From assembly GCA_009840625.1 (NCBI GenBank), contig VXNJ01000001.1, forward strand, positions 1 through 64,000: DNA of 64,000 bases, given 5' to 3'. The notes under the pieces were generated by a model. The model was not told the DNA's origin, did not search any database, and worked only from the letters and a program-made list of their open reading frames with translations. This DNA is from Chloroflexota bacterium. Its GTDB lineage: Bacteria; Chloroflexota; UBA11872; VXNJ01. Below, piece after piece: positions 49,525 through 64,000 of this stretch. Numbering within the stretch: the stretch's first letter is position 1; each line of letters starts with the position of its first letter. The position numbers and the translations under genes are program-made.

Positions 49525-50379
49525 TTAGCTGCGCCTGCCCGCGATGGATTGGCGACTTGCCTCCCACGCCAGCATGCAACGTTTACGCGTGGCTCCACCG
49601 GCGTAGCCACCCGTAATCCCGCCCGCGCGGATAACGCGGTGACATGGGATGAGAAAGGCAATCGGGTTTCTGCCCACCGCGCCCCCCGTCGCGCGAGACG
49701 CTTGTTTGTTGCCGATTTCTGCTGCCAGGCGGCCGTAGCTGACGACCTGCCCAAAGGGAACGCGGAGCAAGGCGCGCCAGACGGCCAGTTGGAAATTCGT
49801 CCCGCGTACGTGCACGGTCAATGGGCGACTATCGGCTTCCAATGGCGCTGAGAAGATAGACCGCGCCAACGCTTCGGCCATCTGTTCGTCGCATTCCAAC
49901 GACGCATGCTCCCACGTCCGCTGGAGCGCCTCAATCTCGGCGGAAACATCTCCATCTGTCGTGAATCCGACCCGGCATACGCCGCGCTCGGTCCGGGCGA
50001 CAAACACAGGACCGAATGGAGAATCTCCAGTGCCGAAGCGAATTGTTAAGCCCGCACCTTTGTTTCGGTACTCGCCGGGTGTGACGGCTTCAACAGTGAC
50101 GAAATGATCGTGCAACCTTCCCGGCCCGGTCAATCCGCTCCCGTAGGCCGCGCCGAGCACGGATTCTGAACGGTCAAGCAGCTGCTTCGCGTGCTGCACG
50201 GTGAGGTACTCGAGGAAGCGCTTTGGCGTGACGCCGGCCCAACGCAAAAAAAGTCTGTGCAGATGACTTTGGCTAAGTCCGATATGGGCAGCCAAATCGG
50301 CGAGTTCCGGCTGGCGCTCGCGATTCATTGCCAAATATCGAATGGAGGCCTCGACTCTCTCGTAGTCGTTCGAGGACAT
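49525..50379 (-). CDS. AraC-type HTH fused to O6-methylguanine-DNA methyltransferase (Ada-like)
   Basis: The product is 284 residues from ATG 50379, which has GGAG seven bases upstream. The frame opens further to 50670, but that stretch has no conserved pattern. Residues 1-110 form an AraC-type DNA-binding domain (LADLAAHIGLSQSHLHRLFLRW and VTPKRFLEYLTVQHAKQLL). The C-terminal half is an MGMT domain, with FQLAVWRALLRVPFGQVVSYG and the acceptor motif IPCHRVIRAGG, so the active Cys is present. It repairs O6-alkylguanine and probably regulates an adaptive alkylation response. The N-terminal zinc methylphosphotriester domain of full-length Ada is missing. Confidence 0.9.
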   Translation of the reverse strand: MSSNDYERVEASIRYLAMNRERQPELADLAAHIGLSQSHLHRLFLRWAGVTPKRFLEYLTVQHAKQLLDRSESVLGAAYGSGLTGPGRLHDHFVTVEAVTPGEYRNKGAGLTIRFGTGDSPFGPVFVARTERGVCRVGFTTDGDVSAEIEALQRTWEHASLECDEQMAEALARSIFSAPLEADSRPLTVHVRGTNFQLAVWRALLRVPFGQVVSYGRLAAEIGNKQASRATGGAVGRNPIAFLIPCHRVIRAGGITGGYAGGATRKRCMLAWEASRQSIAGRRS

Positions 50380-50729
50380 GCATTTCTCCGGAGCTGGCTG
50401 CCGTTTGATGGTCTCTTGAAACGTATACGCTAATGGCGTTGAGCGCGACCCGATCCTTGCCATTGCGCCGTCGACGCAAGAAGTAGCCAACGGCTCGTTC
50501 GCTCGAATTCGGCGCGGAAGTTTCCAAGAAGTCGCGATCCGCAGCCACGATCGCGAATGGAATTTGGCGGCAGTTTGTGATGGTTTCCATCCTCGTGGCT
50601 TAACCCAAATCAATGATGTCGGGTGCTTTGGGTCGTAGCTTCCACGCGAAATCACGTTTTCACGGTACAAATGCCCGGAGATTGGCTGCGCAACAATTCA
50701 TCACCCCGAAGGCATCAAGGAGATTGAGC
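50380..50729. other. Divergent intergenic region between the AraC-MGMT and formamidase genes
   Basis: These 350 bases separate two divergent starts and should hold both promoters. I see no clear -35/-10 pair, hairpin or RNA gene. The open frames on both strands are upstream extensions of the two neighbouring genes without conserved sequence. Confidence 0.45.
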
Positions 50730-58726: not shown

Positions 58727-59482
58727 TTACCCGATTCGGTAAGTGCCGGGACTGAATCCGGAACTATGGTCTTCGTTGCGCTCGCACATCGCTACGAACA
58801 ATTGCGCGACCGCCATCGCGTCCTGCTTAGCCCGATGGCCGCCGCTTAAGTAGACACCGTAGCGGCGACAAGCATCGGCCAGTTTGTGGGACCGCTCGTT
58901 GGCGTCGAATTGGCGCGACATTTGCAGCGTGTCTATTCCCCGGTTGGTAGGCACCGCAAGGCCACAGCGCCGGAATTCGGCATGGAGAAAACCGGCATCA
59001 AATCTGAGATTGTGTGCAAGCAGGACCTTTTCCGCTAGCAACGCCTCCACGGCGCCAGAAACTTCGGAAAAAACCGGCGCATTAACCAAATCGCTGTCTC
59101 GGATGCCGTGAATTTGCGTTGCCGAAAGCGGTACCGGCCGCTCCGGATTGATCAGCGATTCCCATTGCCAAGCGAGATCACCCTCTCCTGTCAATCCGAC
59201 CAGGGCCAGTTCGACGATCCGATCGCGCCTGGAGTCGAGGCCGGTGGTTTCGACATCAATTGCGACTACGTCTTCAAGCCCCGTTGGGGAGATTTGACCG
59301 CCCTGCGGATCCGCATCGTTGAAGTCGACTTGATCTTGGTCGCCGAGCAGACGCCGCGCCAGAAATCCGATCAGGAATTCCACTTTGGCCAATCCCCCAA
59401 CCCGAAACTCGACGGAATCCAACACGGCGGCCCCTACTGCGGCGCGCTGGCGCCAACCCGTTTGATTGAGTTTTCTGCGCAA
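58727..59482 (-). CDS. DEDDh-type 3'-5' exonuclease (DnaQ/RNase T-like)
   Basis: This 251-residue protein has the full DEDDh set: VVAIDVETTGLDS (Asp and Glu), LLAHNLRFDAGFLHAEF (second Asp) and GGHRAKQDAMAVAQLF (His and last Asp spaced by four). It is a 3'-5' exonuclease of the DnaQ epsilon/RNase T family. It is not an epsilon subunit, since no polymerase-binding C-terminus follows. About 70 N-terminal residues precede the core and lack a recognised domain. The start is ATG 59482. It opens a right-hand stretch rich in nuclease genes (58.7-64 kb). Confidence 0.87.
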   Translation of the reverse strand: MRRKLNQTGWRQRAAVGAAVLDSVEFRVGGLAKVEFLIGFLARRLLGDQDQVDFNDADPQGGQISPTGLEDVVAIDVETTGLDSRRDRIVELALVGLTGEGDLAWQWESLINPERPVPLSATQIHGIRDSDLVNAPVFSEVSGAVEALLAEKVLLAHNLRFDAGFLHAEFRRCGLAVPTNRGIDTLQMSRQFDANERSHKLADACRRYGVYLSGGHRAKQDAMAVAQLFVAMCERNEDHSSGFSPGTYRIG

Positions 59483-59955: not shown

Positions 59956-60549
59956 TCAATCCGGTGGCTTTGCCCCAATCTCCAATTGATTTGGAAATGC
60001 GGTGGCGATTGCGTCAGGAAGCTCTCCGATGCGGCAACTCGAGTACGAGCGCTTCAAGACTTGCAGTCCGATCGTTTTTTGTAAACATGGCAGCTCGGAT
60101 TCGGCCACGACGAAGAATCGCCACTGCGCGGGATCACTTTGGTCAGCAAATTCCCGCCGCCTTTCACCGTGCCACGCAAATACGTACACGTCGGCTGGCC
60201 GGGAAGGTGATTGAAAGGGAATCCAGTCGCCGCCATTTTTGAGCCAATATCCCGTGCGGGGGGCGATGTCAAACCTTGCAATAGCCTGCCGATCAGGAGC
60301 TTCCGCCGCCCGATCCCAAGACTGCCTTGCTGAGGATTGCTTAACTTCAACGCGGACACCGGTTCGGTGCTCAATGTCCCAAACGGCCCAATTCCAGCCA
60401 TTTATCCACGTGAGTTGCCAATCATGGCCCAATGCGTGCGCCACCATGCATTCGACATAGTCGCCCCGGTAAACGTTTTCCATGACTCTCGCCTCAAATC
60501 GCCGCATGAGAAGGTTTTGAATTCGGTGGCTGATTAACGCAGATTTCAT
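59956..60549 (-). CDS. Small PD-(D/E)XK nuclease-fold protein, uncharacterised
   Basis: The 197-residue protein has a plausible PD-(D/E)XK core: Glu33 in RGDYVECMVAHAL on the first helix, Asp58 in WAVWDIEHRTG, and Glu68-Val-Lys70 in VRVEVKQSS, the order and spacing expected of the fold. WNWAVWD and YVFAWHGE suggest a strand-rich core. I cannot name its family. The start is ATG 60549; an internal Met at residue 23 is an alternative. It is divergent from the HEPN gene (241 bp apart) and downstream, on the same strand, of a region of open DNA. Its role may be DNA cleavage or binding in a defence or repair system. Confidence 0.6.
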   Translation of the reverse strand: MKSALISHRIQNLLMRRFEARVMENVYRGDYVECMVAHALGHDWQLTWINGWNWAVWDIEHRTGVRVEVKQSSARQSWDRAAEAPDRQAIARFDIAPRTGYWLKNGGDWIPFQSPSRPADVYVFAWHGERRREFADQSDPAQWRFFVVAESELPCLQKTIGLQVLKRSYSSCRIGELPDAIATAFPNQLEIGAKPPD

Positions 60550-60790
60550 AGGTGTTTTCCCTTGACCGATGGAACCGGGGGGGGGCTAACGATTGGGATT
60601 CGAGAACTGAGTCTTTGCGCGATCAATTGGCGCACAGCGAGATGAGGATAGAGGAAAGTCCATGGGTTCACTCCAATTCAACGTTGATCTTGCGTACGAC
60701 CGGCCATGTTCATCGGCGGGAACACCAGGTAGGCGCCCACAATTGGGGGTTGGTACTTACTTACGGGAAACGCTGAGACGAGGCAGTCAA

Positions 60791-61636
60791 TTGAGTAAGT
60801 CACGCGATCGACGTCGACGACAAAAGCGGCAATCAGCGCGGCAGGGTCGCCACCGCAAGCAAGACCGCCCTCGGGGGGAGATCAGGACTGTAGATGCTCA
60901 GGAATTCATCAACAAAAGGATTGAGCACGGGGCCCGCCTGGTTGACGACAGTCGCGAATTGGTCGATGAGGCCGAGATTATATGGAGCATTAATCCTGGC
61001 GAGGATCTCGTTTCCCAATTGTGTGTCGAGTGCCTGGAATTTATGAACCTCGCAGCGAGGAACTCCGGCAGAGCAGTCGAATTACTTGAAGACCCCCGTA
61101 CAGAAGGTGATCACCATCGATCTACCGCTCTGAAGAAATACGTTGAAGACACGGGGCAAGCCCTCAAGGAGATCGACAATCGCCTGAAAGTGCGAGGGTC
61201 TTCGCTAATCGCTCTTTTCCCAGAGTTGCCCAAAGAAATCTGGCGCGACCTATTGGCCCGCCGGAATGTAATTGCACACCGGATACTCAGCGTCGATGAC
61301 AAGAGAGTCCGTGAGGAAGCCGGGAGGTACTTCAGGGATTTATATCGGTTGGTCCGGCGCATCGAGTTTTCCCCCGTAATGGTCAATTTGAAGACCGGTC
61401 TGATTCCCGGGCCGCAATTCAAGGGTTCAGTACTGCTCGATTTGCCGTTGGTGGCGCCCGGAATGCAGCCAAAACTCGGCGAAGCATTAATAGTCGTTTA
61501 TGAGACGGAAAAGGGTGTTTTGGCATTGCGATTTGGGCGCACGAATGCAAACACACTTGCCATCGCCTCTTCAATTCCAGGTGAGTTTGATTTCAAGCTG
61601 TACAAAGTTCAATTTGGAGGCGACAACGCGAATTAA
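60791..61636 (+). CDS. HEPN-like domain protein with an RNxxxH motif
   Basis: The product is 281 residues from TTG 60791, which has GAGG eight bases upstream; the open frame extends to 60662 but lacks pattern and is very Arg-rich. Residues ~60-185 resemble HEPN proteins of the HepT/DUF86 kind: helices SRELVDEAEIIWS and NLAARNSGRAVELLED are followed by the RNase motif Arg158-Asn159-x3-His163 in ARRNVIAHRI. HEPN domains with RNxxxH commonly act as RNases in toxin-antitoxin and abortive infection systems. No MNT nucleotidyltransferase partner is adjacent. The Arg-rich N-terminus before the HEPN region may contact nucleic acid. Confidence 0.6.
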   Translation: MSKSRDRRRRQKRQSARQGRHRKQDRPRGEIRTVDAQEFINKRIEHGARLVDDSRELVDEAEIIWSINPGEDLVSQLCVECLEFMNLAARNSGRAVELLEDPRTEGDHHRSTALKKYVEDTGQALKEIDNRLKVRGSSLIALFPELPKEIWRDLLARRNVIAHRILSVDDKRVREEAGRYFRDLYRLVRRIEFSPVMVNLKTGLIPGPQFKGSVLLDLPLVAPGMQPKLGEALIVVYETEKGVLALRFGRTNANTLAIASSIPGEFDFKLYKVQFGGDNAN

Positions 61637-61920: not shown

Positions 61921-63279
61921 TCAAGTGTTTTGCTTTGCGCGGGCCATCAACGTGCCTGAGGAAAGTCGCTGGCCGACCGCAGCTTTACCCCCTGGGAATT
62001 GCACGCCTTCATCAATCAATACTCGTTTAGGGTCTCGCGTATCTTGAGGGTCGGACCAGGAAAAATGTTCCGAAACCGAACCGTCGGCATTCAGCACTCT
62101 GTACCCTTTTGAGCAATCACCGCATGAGGCAATGTGCCTCCCTACCGCAATGGGTGAACTTTCGACCAACTTGGCCAAGTCACCATAGGTTGTCCACTCC
62201 CCAGGACGCACAAAACCTAACAATTCGTGCAGGGCGCCCCAATCCCGCCGAACTCCCCGGGCCCAACTAAATCCTGCCAATTCGGCAAGCGACTTCCCGC
62301 TCCTAGACTGCCAAGCTTCGGGCCCATTGATTACAGCGAGCATTTCACCCGTTGCCTTCAACCCGATTTCTTTTGCTAGTCCGGTCGGGCTCCAATGTGC
62401 GCCATCAATCGCCCACTTCAAAGGCAAGCGAGAGTGATTACGCCAGGTCGCTATGGCTCGCTCAGGCGTTTCTGCCAGCCATCTAGAGATTGGTTGCCGC
62501 ATTCGGACCGGGAACGCCTCAACTACTACGTCTACGTGCACACCGTCGTCAAGCAATCCGCCGTCAACGATTTTTTTGGTCGCGGTAGCTTCTCGACGAT
62601 TGCGCGTTCTTTCCCGTAATCCCCCAGGCGGCGCCGGTGTAACCACGAAATCTTCGGCGTCGGGAATCGGCCAGGTTTGCGATACGGTGATCACGATCTG
62701 TTTACCGGTATCCCAAGCGCTGAATTCAATCAGCGACACGTCTATTCCCATTTCTGTCAGCCACACTGCGCTCGTCGAGACTTGTGATGGGAATCCTTCC
62801 GCCATCAAGATGATCCTGGGGCGTTTCAGCAATTCAGGATCGAAGTCACCACCAATGTGATCCTCAAGGAGTCCGAGGGCCTCGTTTTCACTGACAGTCG
62901 ATTCGCCAACATCGGTCAAGTACCGGGAGTGACTGACGGCGAGCGTCGAAGAATCGAATCTGCTTGCCATGGCCGCGTATTTGATTGCCTGAGTCTCTAC
63001 GAAATCAGGTGCCACCCCGCGCTTCAGTTCGGCAATCACGAGTCTCCCATCCTCGTCGACACCCAAAAGATCCAGACGATCAAGTGGACGGTTGTTGCGA
63101 CCCTGCCATGAACTGAATTCGAAGGTAACTATGCGTACCGAATCTCCGAGGATTTTGGGGTTTTTTCTGACCCACTCTTGCAAATGTGTCCGTTCGCGAA
63201 ATCCCGCGTCTGCTAGCGAAATCCGCTGTGCAGGTAGAGCATTTCCCGATTCAACAGTGAAGACTTGCTCGTCTCCCAA
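61921..63279 (-). CDS. Fusion of a NucS/DUF91-like PD-(D/E)XK nuclease, a RAMA-like region and an ATL-like domain
   Basis: The 452-residue protein combines three regions. Residues ~25-150 match the NucS/DUF91-like core, with HLQEWVRKNPKILG, Asp70 in RLDLLGVDEDG and Glu84-Leu-Lys86 in VIAELKRG. Residues ~236-335 look RAMA-like: GGLLDDG, then IDGAHWSPTGLAKEI, NGPEAWQ and SGKSLAEL. Residues ~348-432 resemble alkyltransferase-like (ATL/MGMT C-terminal) domains: LLGFVRPGEWTTYGDLAKLV and GYRVLNADG. The acceptor motif PCHR of MGMT is replaced by KGYR, so no alkyl transfer is expected; ATL proteins bind and flip O6-alkylguanine. TTG 63279 follows AGGGG six bases upstream. The combination suggests a nuclease directed by damaged or modified bases. 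Partners are not evident beyond nearby nuclease genes. Confidence 0.7.
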   Translation of the reverse strand: MGDEQVFTVESGNALPAQRISLADAGFRERTHLQEWVRKNPKILGDSVRIVTFEFSSWQGRNNRPLDRLDLLGVDEDGRLVIAELKRGVAPDFVETQAIKYAAMASRFDSSTLAVSHSRYLTDVGESTVSENEALGLLEDHIGGDFDPELLKRPRIILMAEGFPSQVSTSAVWLTEMGIDVSLIEFSAWDTGKQIVITVSQTWPIPDAEDFVVTPAPPGGLRERTRNRREATATKKIVDGGLLDDGVHVDVVVEAFPVRMRQPISRWLAETPERAIATWRNHSRLPLKWAIDGAHWSPTGLAKEIGLKATGEMLAVINGPEAWQSRSGKSLAELAGFSWARGVRRDWGALHELLGFVRPGEWTTYGDLAKLVESSPIAVGRHIASCGDCSKGYRVLNADGSVSEHFSWSDPQDTRDPKRVLIDEGVQFPGGKAAVGQRLSSGTLMARAKQNT

Positions 63280-63548
63280 ATCAATCCCCTATTGGCCAAT
63301 AACACGGAGGTTTCAACTAGCAGGAATTCTTCGCCAAATCGATTGTTGGCGACTGCGTTGGCTTCATTTTGAGCATTGAATCATGCACAATAACTCCGTT
63401 CGATAGGAACGCGAAATCTACTTACGATTCATATAGAGTCTTGGCGTTCCCGGTAAGGGGTTGGTTTAGTCAGCCAGTCGGTGGTTCGTGCCGATTCGGC
63501 GAAGCTAAACAAGACCTCCCCAGAACGCGATCGTGAAGGCGATTCCAA

Positions 63549-64000
63549 GTGCGAAATATCTGGATCGTTAGAGCTGGCGGCGGCGGCGTGTTTGCTGATT
63601 CGTACTGGGAGGCGGGGATTATCGCGATCGGGTTTGCACGCACTGGTGATATCTCCCACCTGAAGACCCCAAAGGAGATCATGGACGCGATGAGAGGCGA
63701 ACATCCAAACGTGAAGGACCGCCGGCTACACGCTAGAGCGAGTCAGCTCCTTCGATTTGTTCACGTAATCAAGGAGGGCGACTTAATCCTCACGCCGATA
63801 AGGGATTCGCGCGAAATCATGATCGGGGTCTGCGATGGACCATACAAGTACGAGTCCGGACGACATGACAATAACCCTCATATCCGATCAGTCGATTGGA
63901 AGAAGCGTATTGCGCGGGAAAAGTTGTCCAACCGCGCAAGGAACAGCGCCGGCGGTGCGCAAACACTTTTCTCGATGAATGAACACCGGGCGGAAATCGA
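63549..64000 (+). CDS. Restriction-type protein, N-terminal EVE/PUA-like domain (partial)
   Basis: The gene starts at GTG 63549, the first possible start after an in-frame TGA at 63534, and runs off the right edge after ~150 residues. The fragment reads IWIVRAGGGG, YWEAGIIAIGF, DISHLKTPKEI, then ASQLLRFVHVIKEGDLIL and a late HIRSVDWKKRI. I recognise this pattern from N-terminal domains of predicted Mrr-type restriction endonucleases, where it may read modified bases. The catalytic part lies outside the window, so the identity is provisional. It is divergent from the nuclease-RAMA-ATL gene, 269 bp away, and continues the nuclease-rich stretch. Confidence 0.6.
   Translation, partial: MRNIWIVRAGGGGVFADSYWEAGIIAIGFARTGDISHLKTPKEIMDAMRGEHPNVKDRRLHARASQLLRFVHVIKEGDLILTPIRDSREIMIGVCDGPYKYESGRHDNNPHIRSVDWKKRIAREKLSNRARNSAGGAQTLFSMNEHRAEI

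Follow-up and report, generated by a model that had tools for sequence, protein, structure and literature searches.

A NucS-like nuclease joined to a RAMA-fold domain and a cysteine-less alkyltransferase-like module: a candidate modification-dependent restriction endonuclease from Chloroflexota

Background

What might be cut by a protein that carries a nuclease domain at one end and, at the other, a relative of the DNA alkyltransferases that lacks the acceptor cysteine? The question is raised by a gene close to the end of a 64,000-nucleotide stretch of a Chloroflexota genome (contig VXNJ01000001.1, assembly GCA_009840625.1; hereafter the window), for which an initial annotation proposed a nuclease, a RAMA-like region and an alkyltransferase-like (ATL) module within a single polypeptide, and cleavage at alkylated or otherwise modified bases. 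The choice of which modified phage DNA to destroy falls to type IV restriction enzymes, and to our knowledge only a few of their reader folds have been recognised.

Gene and domain architecture

The gene lies at 61921..63279 on the minus strand and encodes 452 amino acids from a TTG start, 6 nt 5' of which a Shine-Dalgarno-like AGGGG can be read in the sequence (63286..63290, minus strand). The ORF call agrees with two homologues (L068 and L069) that begin at the same point, the first of which is from Chloroflexota. From N- to C-terminus the protein consists of a NucS-like PD-(D/E)XK nuclease, a RAMA-fold domain and an ATL-like winged helix; the position of the reading frame and the three-module order initially proposed are thus borne out by profiles, fold matches and 17 other loci. 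A spurious ORF is ruled out by conservation, and the domain order is not due to chance, because it recurs in those 17 loci at about 40-55% identity. The AlphaFold model of the whole protein has a mean pLDDT of 90.3 and a pTM of 0.57, such that its predicted domain folds can be considered reliable, but not their mutual arrangement. Foldseek matches to this model are NucS (2vld, E=2.8e-4), EndoMS, 2kif and Atl1, followed by Hachiman HamA and Shedu SduA. When the three regions were compared with domain profiles, as had been suggested, the nuclease and the ATL-like module were matched, whereas the RAMA region of the window protein was not.

For the nuclease domain (residues 1-205; 62665..63279, minus strand), the whole-protein model, with a pLDDT of about 90, gives a Foldseek match to NucS. 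It matches the PADLOC profile PDC-S11 (E=2.3e-45, residues 6-233), a candidate family derived from guilt-by-embedding, yet the match covers the profile only to position 219 of 347; what is held in common is therefore the N-terminal nuclease region (1-214/237, E 2e-45), and not the RAMA-ATL C-terminal part of the window protein. The catalytic motifs D70, E84-x-K86 and Q97 (62989..63072, minus strand) fall within a segment, residues 68-102, that aligns with Pyrococcus NucS (2vld), D70, E84 and K86 corresponding to D160, E174 and K176. When 18 proteins (the window protein included) are aligned, all four residues fall among the near-invariant positions, and they are invariant in a 16-protein alignment. 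Profile, alignment with 2vld, conservation and fold consequently uphold the proposed NucS-like PD-(D/E)XK core. The catalytic fold and D/E/K/Q residues are shared with the mismatch endonuclease NucS/EndoMS, but in the window protein the nuclease domain is N-terminal and is followed by RAMA and ATL-like modules. NucS/EndoMS proper was rejected as an identity on account of this position and of scores under the curated cut-offs, both for Pfam NucS_C (residues 31-88, E=0.0097, 16.3 bits against a cut-off of 24) and for NCBIfam NucS (E=9e-5, 21.7 against 216).

The RAMA-fold middle domain

Evidence for the middle domain (residues 225-341; 62257..62607, minus strand) comes from structure prediction and profile alignment. 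A search of the window protein with the RAMA profile (PF18755) gave no match, and among 17 homologues of the domain the profile matched one (E=0.13), with DUF4357 matched in one (E=0.02). Alignment of profiles against 13 RAMA domains is colinear over the full length, and its global hhalign score (18.0) exceeds the maximum reached by 60 column permutations (7.6), whereas the local score (18.9) falls below the permuted maximum (20.6). AlphaFold models residues 225-341 at a pLDDT of 94.7 and a pTM of 0.87, and the top PDB match to this model in Foldseek is the RAMA domain of MPND (7ydw; probability 0.66, TM 0.55/0.66, E 0.7), which is the only credible one, given that the remaining 21 matches have probabilities of at most 0.03. 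RAMA sequences are known to diverge while the fold is kept (PMC9963953). The proposal of a RAMA-like region therefore stands as to predicted fold and not as to profile, and we describe the modelled domain as RAMA-fold rather than as a member of PF18755. The RAMA domain of MPND binds double-stranded DNA without a clear preference for 6mA, through backbone contacts that are independent of sequence (PMC9963953).

The ATL-like module

The C-terminal module (residues 346-445; 61945..62244, minus strand) is a cysteine-less winged helix of the MGMT type. PF01035 is matched at residues 354-408 with E=2e-4, which is under the curated cut-off, although the cut-off is exceeded in homologues L068 and L069. 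Compared with solved structures, the profile of the module finds Atl1 best (3gva, E=1.4e-7), then 2kif, with the true alkyltransferases behind, and Foldseek likewise matches 2kif and 3gva. The features of ATL proteins that are present comprise the MGMT-type winged helix, the absence of the acceptor cysteine and a tyrosine, Y365 (62185..62187, minus strand), aligned with the base-flipping tyrosine of Atl1 (Y25) and of the human protein (Y114). In place of PCHR the module has KGYR (residues 391-394; 62098..62109, minus strand), as the initial annotation had noted; it is on this ground that an O6-alkylguanine-DNA alkyltransferase was rejected. The acceptor position is occupied by Ala, Pro, Gly or Thr, and by Cys in none of 81 modules.

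Other elements of the module depart from the ATL pattern. In ATLs, according to a review of the family, the arginine finger is retained and the cysteine is mostly replaced by Trp (PMC10779285), whereas the equivalents of Atl1 R39, W56 and R69 in the window protein are I377, G392 and H405. The arginine-finger position, here Ile, is Gln or Val in most modules and Arg in 3 of the 81. Classical ATL membership was accordingly rejected despite the shared fold, for want of the arginine finger, the Trp and the R69-type lesion contact. What the module has instead is a pocket loop with F406-x-W408 (62056..62064, minus strand) and R394-V-L, in which F, W and R are invariant in 81 of 81 modules; the F-x-W signature lies outside the pattern used to find relatives, unlike Y365, whose conservation within the motif holds by construction. 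A pair of cysteines, C386-x2-C389 (62113..62124, minus strand), marks every one of the 19 S11-type modules as well as one module attached to a GmrSD protein (L070); the remainder lack it. Judged from the three replacements (R39 to I377, W56 to G392, R69 to H405), the module offers no support for specific sensing of O6-alkylguanine, as first suggested; canonical PCHRV-type MGMTs are present elsewhere in the genome. Two Glycomyces proteins (L138 and L147; 126-134 aa) consist of the ATL-like module on its own and have Arg where the arginine finger would lie.

Distribution and exchange of the module

When 84,980 species genomes were scanned with the module alignment, 193 relatives emerged, 80 of which were kept; counts are lower bounds, since the scan relied on the pattern WT[TS]YGDLA. 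The S11-middle-ATL order is found in 17 of the 80, from Actinomycetota and from a single Chloroflexi bin, whose protein L068 is 62%, 49% and 55% identical to the window protein over the three parts, and an eighteenth relative of this order, L079, has a truncated frame. The initial annotation knew of no described protein with the exact order, but the order is not unique, given these 17 further loci. Within the phylum, a search with the C-terminal half recovered the full order in 1 of 400 genomes, namely the window's own, and pattern scans of viral contigs and of phages found no relative of the module.

Most of the 80 relatives are GmrSD proteins (DUF262-DUF1524) with the module on the C-terminal side. 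The presence of PF01035 in GmrSD proteins was reported from Streptomyces in 2015 (PMC4619093); the module of these type IV enzymes is about 40-50% identical, but their cutter is DUF262-DUF1524 rather than the PD-(D/E)XK of S11, and most lack the C-x2-C pair. One of the 80 relatives, the GmrSD protein L070, also carries a RAMA domain (E=1.1e-17), so that the RAMA-ATL pair occurs on a different cutter. A further seven relatives start with an Mrr_N-like domain. In two of these an AAA_5 McrB-like motor follows (L123, which was profiled, and L140, by its grouping with L123), and the other five (L102, L115, L121, L127 and L135) tentatively have a weak HEPN-like region, for which the HEPN profile gives E 0.04-0.07 in L102 and L127, with the sequence RRNNIAH; PADLOC searches of these two gave no match. 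The ATL-like module sits between the Mrr_N-like domain and the McrB-like motor or HEPN-like region. In total, the module is fused to four types of effector (S11 nuclease, GmrSD, Mrr_N-McrB-like AAA and Mrr_N-HEPN-like), and its occurrence on GmrSD, McrB-like and HEPN-like proteins indicates that it behaves as a shared reader.

The window protein and L068 cluster in trees of both the ATL module (97/95), a tree built on few columns with many open forks, and the nuclease (98/98). The nuclease clade of ATL-bearing proteins also includes L045, in which DUF4268 takes the place of ATL, as well as two shorter proteins encoded on plasmids (L040 and L041), S11-RAMA relatives from which a C-terminal module is absent. 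As this clade mixes ATL, DUF4268 and module-free proteins, its history includes exchange or loss of the C-terminal module.

Genomic setting

In the window, a gene with a PDC-S02 N-terminus and an Mrr_cat restriction endonuclease domain, identified by profiles (63549..64000, plus strand, running on to 64550), diverges from the S11-RAMA-ATL gene across a gap of 270 bp. Elsewhere, in a raw, unnormalised listing, defence genes adjoin several members: a GmrSD gene 11 bp upstream of L101 and, within 4.5 kb, HsdR and HsdS beside L076, an AAA_5-McrC pair beside L078 and ZacB/ZacC beside L083, with similar genes adjoining L074. UvrD-type helicases, which are less specific, adjoin L072 and L087. No partner gene is conserved across the 18 loci, the widest shared cluster of neighbours being that of metG (named from sequence), which adjoins several Streptomyces copies that are not in an obvious island. 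A motif scan and profiles of selected neighbours recognised no methyltransferase directly beside members of the same architecture. A stand-alone gene without an adjacent methyltransferase is characteristic of type IV enzymes, and the gene has this property among the neighbours profiled.

The host genome has five methyltransferase matches (two of C5 type, two of N6/N4 type and a Dam-like one), of which the two C5 and the Dam-like are clustered at C1:84881-93958, about 21-31 kb from the nuclease gene. On a Kocuria rosea plasmid, the S11-RAMA protein without ATL (L041) adjoins an MT-A70 methyltransferase gene. Several other genes may be mentioned. An Ada-like protein whose alkyltransferase domain, PCHRV included, is intact (PF01035 E=3.5e-30) is encoded at 49525-50670 of the window (minus strand), and a second PCHRV-type MGMT at C1:747191-747433. 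Adjoining the nuclease gene is a 324 aa HepT-like/HEPN protein (60662-61636, plus strand; E=1.2e-5) with weak Csx1/Csm6 similarity, and a 197 aa protein bearing a VEVKQ motif reminiscent of nucleases lies at 59956-60549 (minus strand), without a confident match in Pfam, NCBIfam or PADLOC. Two DnaQ-type exonucleases that resemble each other are encoded about 24 kb apart, at 58727-59482 of the window (minus strand; RNase_T E=2.4e-30) and at C1:82675-83592 (minus strand). Just beyond the window, C1:67006-80285 carries type IV secretion-like (VirB4/VirD4-like) and Tad-type pilus genes, which, as named from their sequence, suggest a mobile element adjoining the nuclease.

Proposed function and alternatives

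More probably than not, in our view, the window protein acts on its own as a modification-dependent (type IV-like) restriction endonuclease directed against invading DNA; of the functions considered, the cleavage at modified DNA initially proposed is the best supported, as judged from the domain families. The N-terminal NucS-type PD-(D/E)XK domain would be the cutter, while the RAMA-fold domain would grip double-stranded DNA and the ATL-like winged helix would probe the helix by means of the conserved Tyr365. A flipped modified base may then enter a pocket remodelled from that for O6-alkylguanine (without Cys or arginine finger, and with the new F-x-W loop, in which F406 and W408 presumably play a part), such that cleavage would be confined to modified DNA. 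This reading draws support from the PDC-S11 match, the conserved D70/E84/K86/Q97 and the NucS fold; from the RAMA fold and the ATL-like fold and sequence; from the sharing of the module among four effector types, GmrSD-RAMA-ATL included, and the S11-RAMA relatives that bear DUF4268 or no C-terminal module; and from the defence neighbours (GmrSD, HsdR/HsdS, McrBC, ZacBC and, in the window, the Mrr-type gene), the lack of a recognised adjacent methyltransferase, the patchy occurrence and the absence from viral contigs. Counting against it are the study in which the RAMA domain of MPND showed no 6mA preference (PMC9963953), the Streptomyces copies beside metG outside any obvious island and the host methyltransferases, whose marks the enzyme would have to spare if those methyltransferases are active.

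These same observations bear on other functions. Since RAMA backbone contacts are independent of sequence (PMC9963953), and the ATL-like module has lost its arginine finger along with further lesion contacts, the two modules might merely grip double-stranded DNA regardless of modification, in a defence nuclease that senses invaders by structure, ends or sequence; the nuclease domains of Shedu SduA and Hachiman HamA in the fold search are in keeping with this. However, the pocket signature invariant in 81 of 81 modules suggests that ligand binding is retained, and several partners of the module (GmrSD and the McrB type) come from families that act on modified DNA, and we thus regard such a nuclease as unlikely. 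A repair nuclease incising at alkylated bases would have counterparts in the archaeal ATL-EndoV and AGT-EndoV fusions (PMC10779285), and NucS, itself a repair nuclease, provides the top folds (2vld and 5gke). Those fusions resemble the window protein in joining an alkyltransferase-type domain to an endonuclease, but differ in nuclease fold, in their repair rather than restriction setting and in having no RAMA domain. With R39, W56 and R69 replaced, two PCHRV-type MGMTs already in the genome, patchy occurrence and some members lying among defence genes, a role in repair seems quite improbable. A restriction component of a conventional, methyltransferase-protected R-M pair or multi-subunit system is very improbable: the MT-A70 gene beside the Kocuria plasmid relative that has RAMA but no ATL, and the methyltransferases about 21-31 kb off in the window's genome would fit it, but the 18 loci have no conserved partner gene and no methyltransferase was recognised directly beside members of the same architecture by the motif scan and selected-neighbour profiles.

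Among described enzymes of the preferred, modification-dependent kind, the 6mA-dependent type IV winged-helix fusion endonucleases likewise join a nuclease to a winged-helix reader, usually as stand-alone genes, but their winged helix is of the DpnI type, as opposed to the MGMT type here (PMC11037411). That paper mentions RAMA-nuclease fusions, and a term search of it found no MGMT or alkyltransferase modules. The module of the window protein shares with Atl1 and bacterial ATL proteins the winged-helix fold, the base-flipping Tyr and the missing acceptor Cys, but lacks the Trp at the Cys position, the arginine finger and R69, possesses the F-x-W loop and C-x2-C and is fused to a nuclease.

Conclusions

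Open-access literature, to which our search was confined, yielded no description of an S11-RAMA-ATL protein, nor of an ATL-like module in McrB-like or HEPN-like proteins. A broader proposal, which we advance tentatively and at somewhat less than even confidence, is that the ATL-like module is a base-flipping reader of a class not yet described, recognising a modification other than O6-alkylguanine and interchangeable among at least four defence effectors in Actinomycetota and Chloroflexota, of which the window protein would be the NucS-RAMA version. If this is true, a repair-protein fold has been reused as a reader on four effector types, adding one fold to those through which modified DNA is recognised. 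The F-x-W pocket would offer a concrete handle for finding the base that is read, and such readers may prove to be potential tools for mapping DNA modifications.
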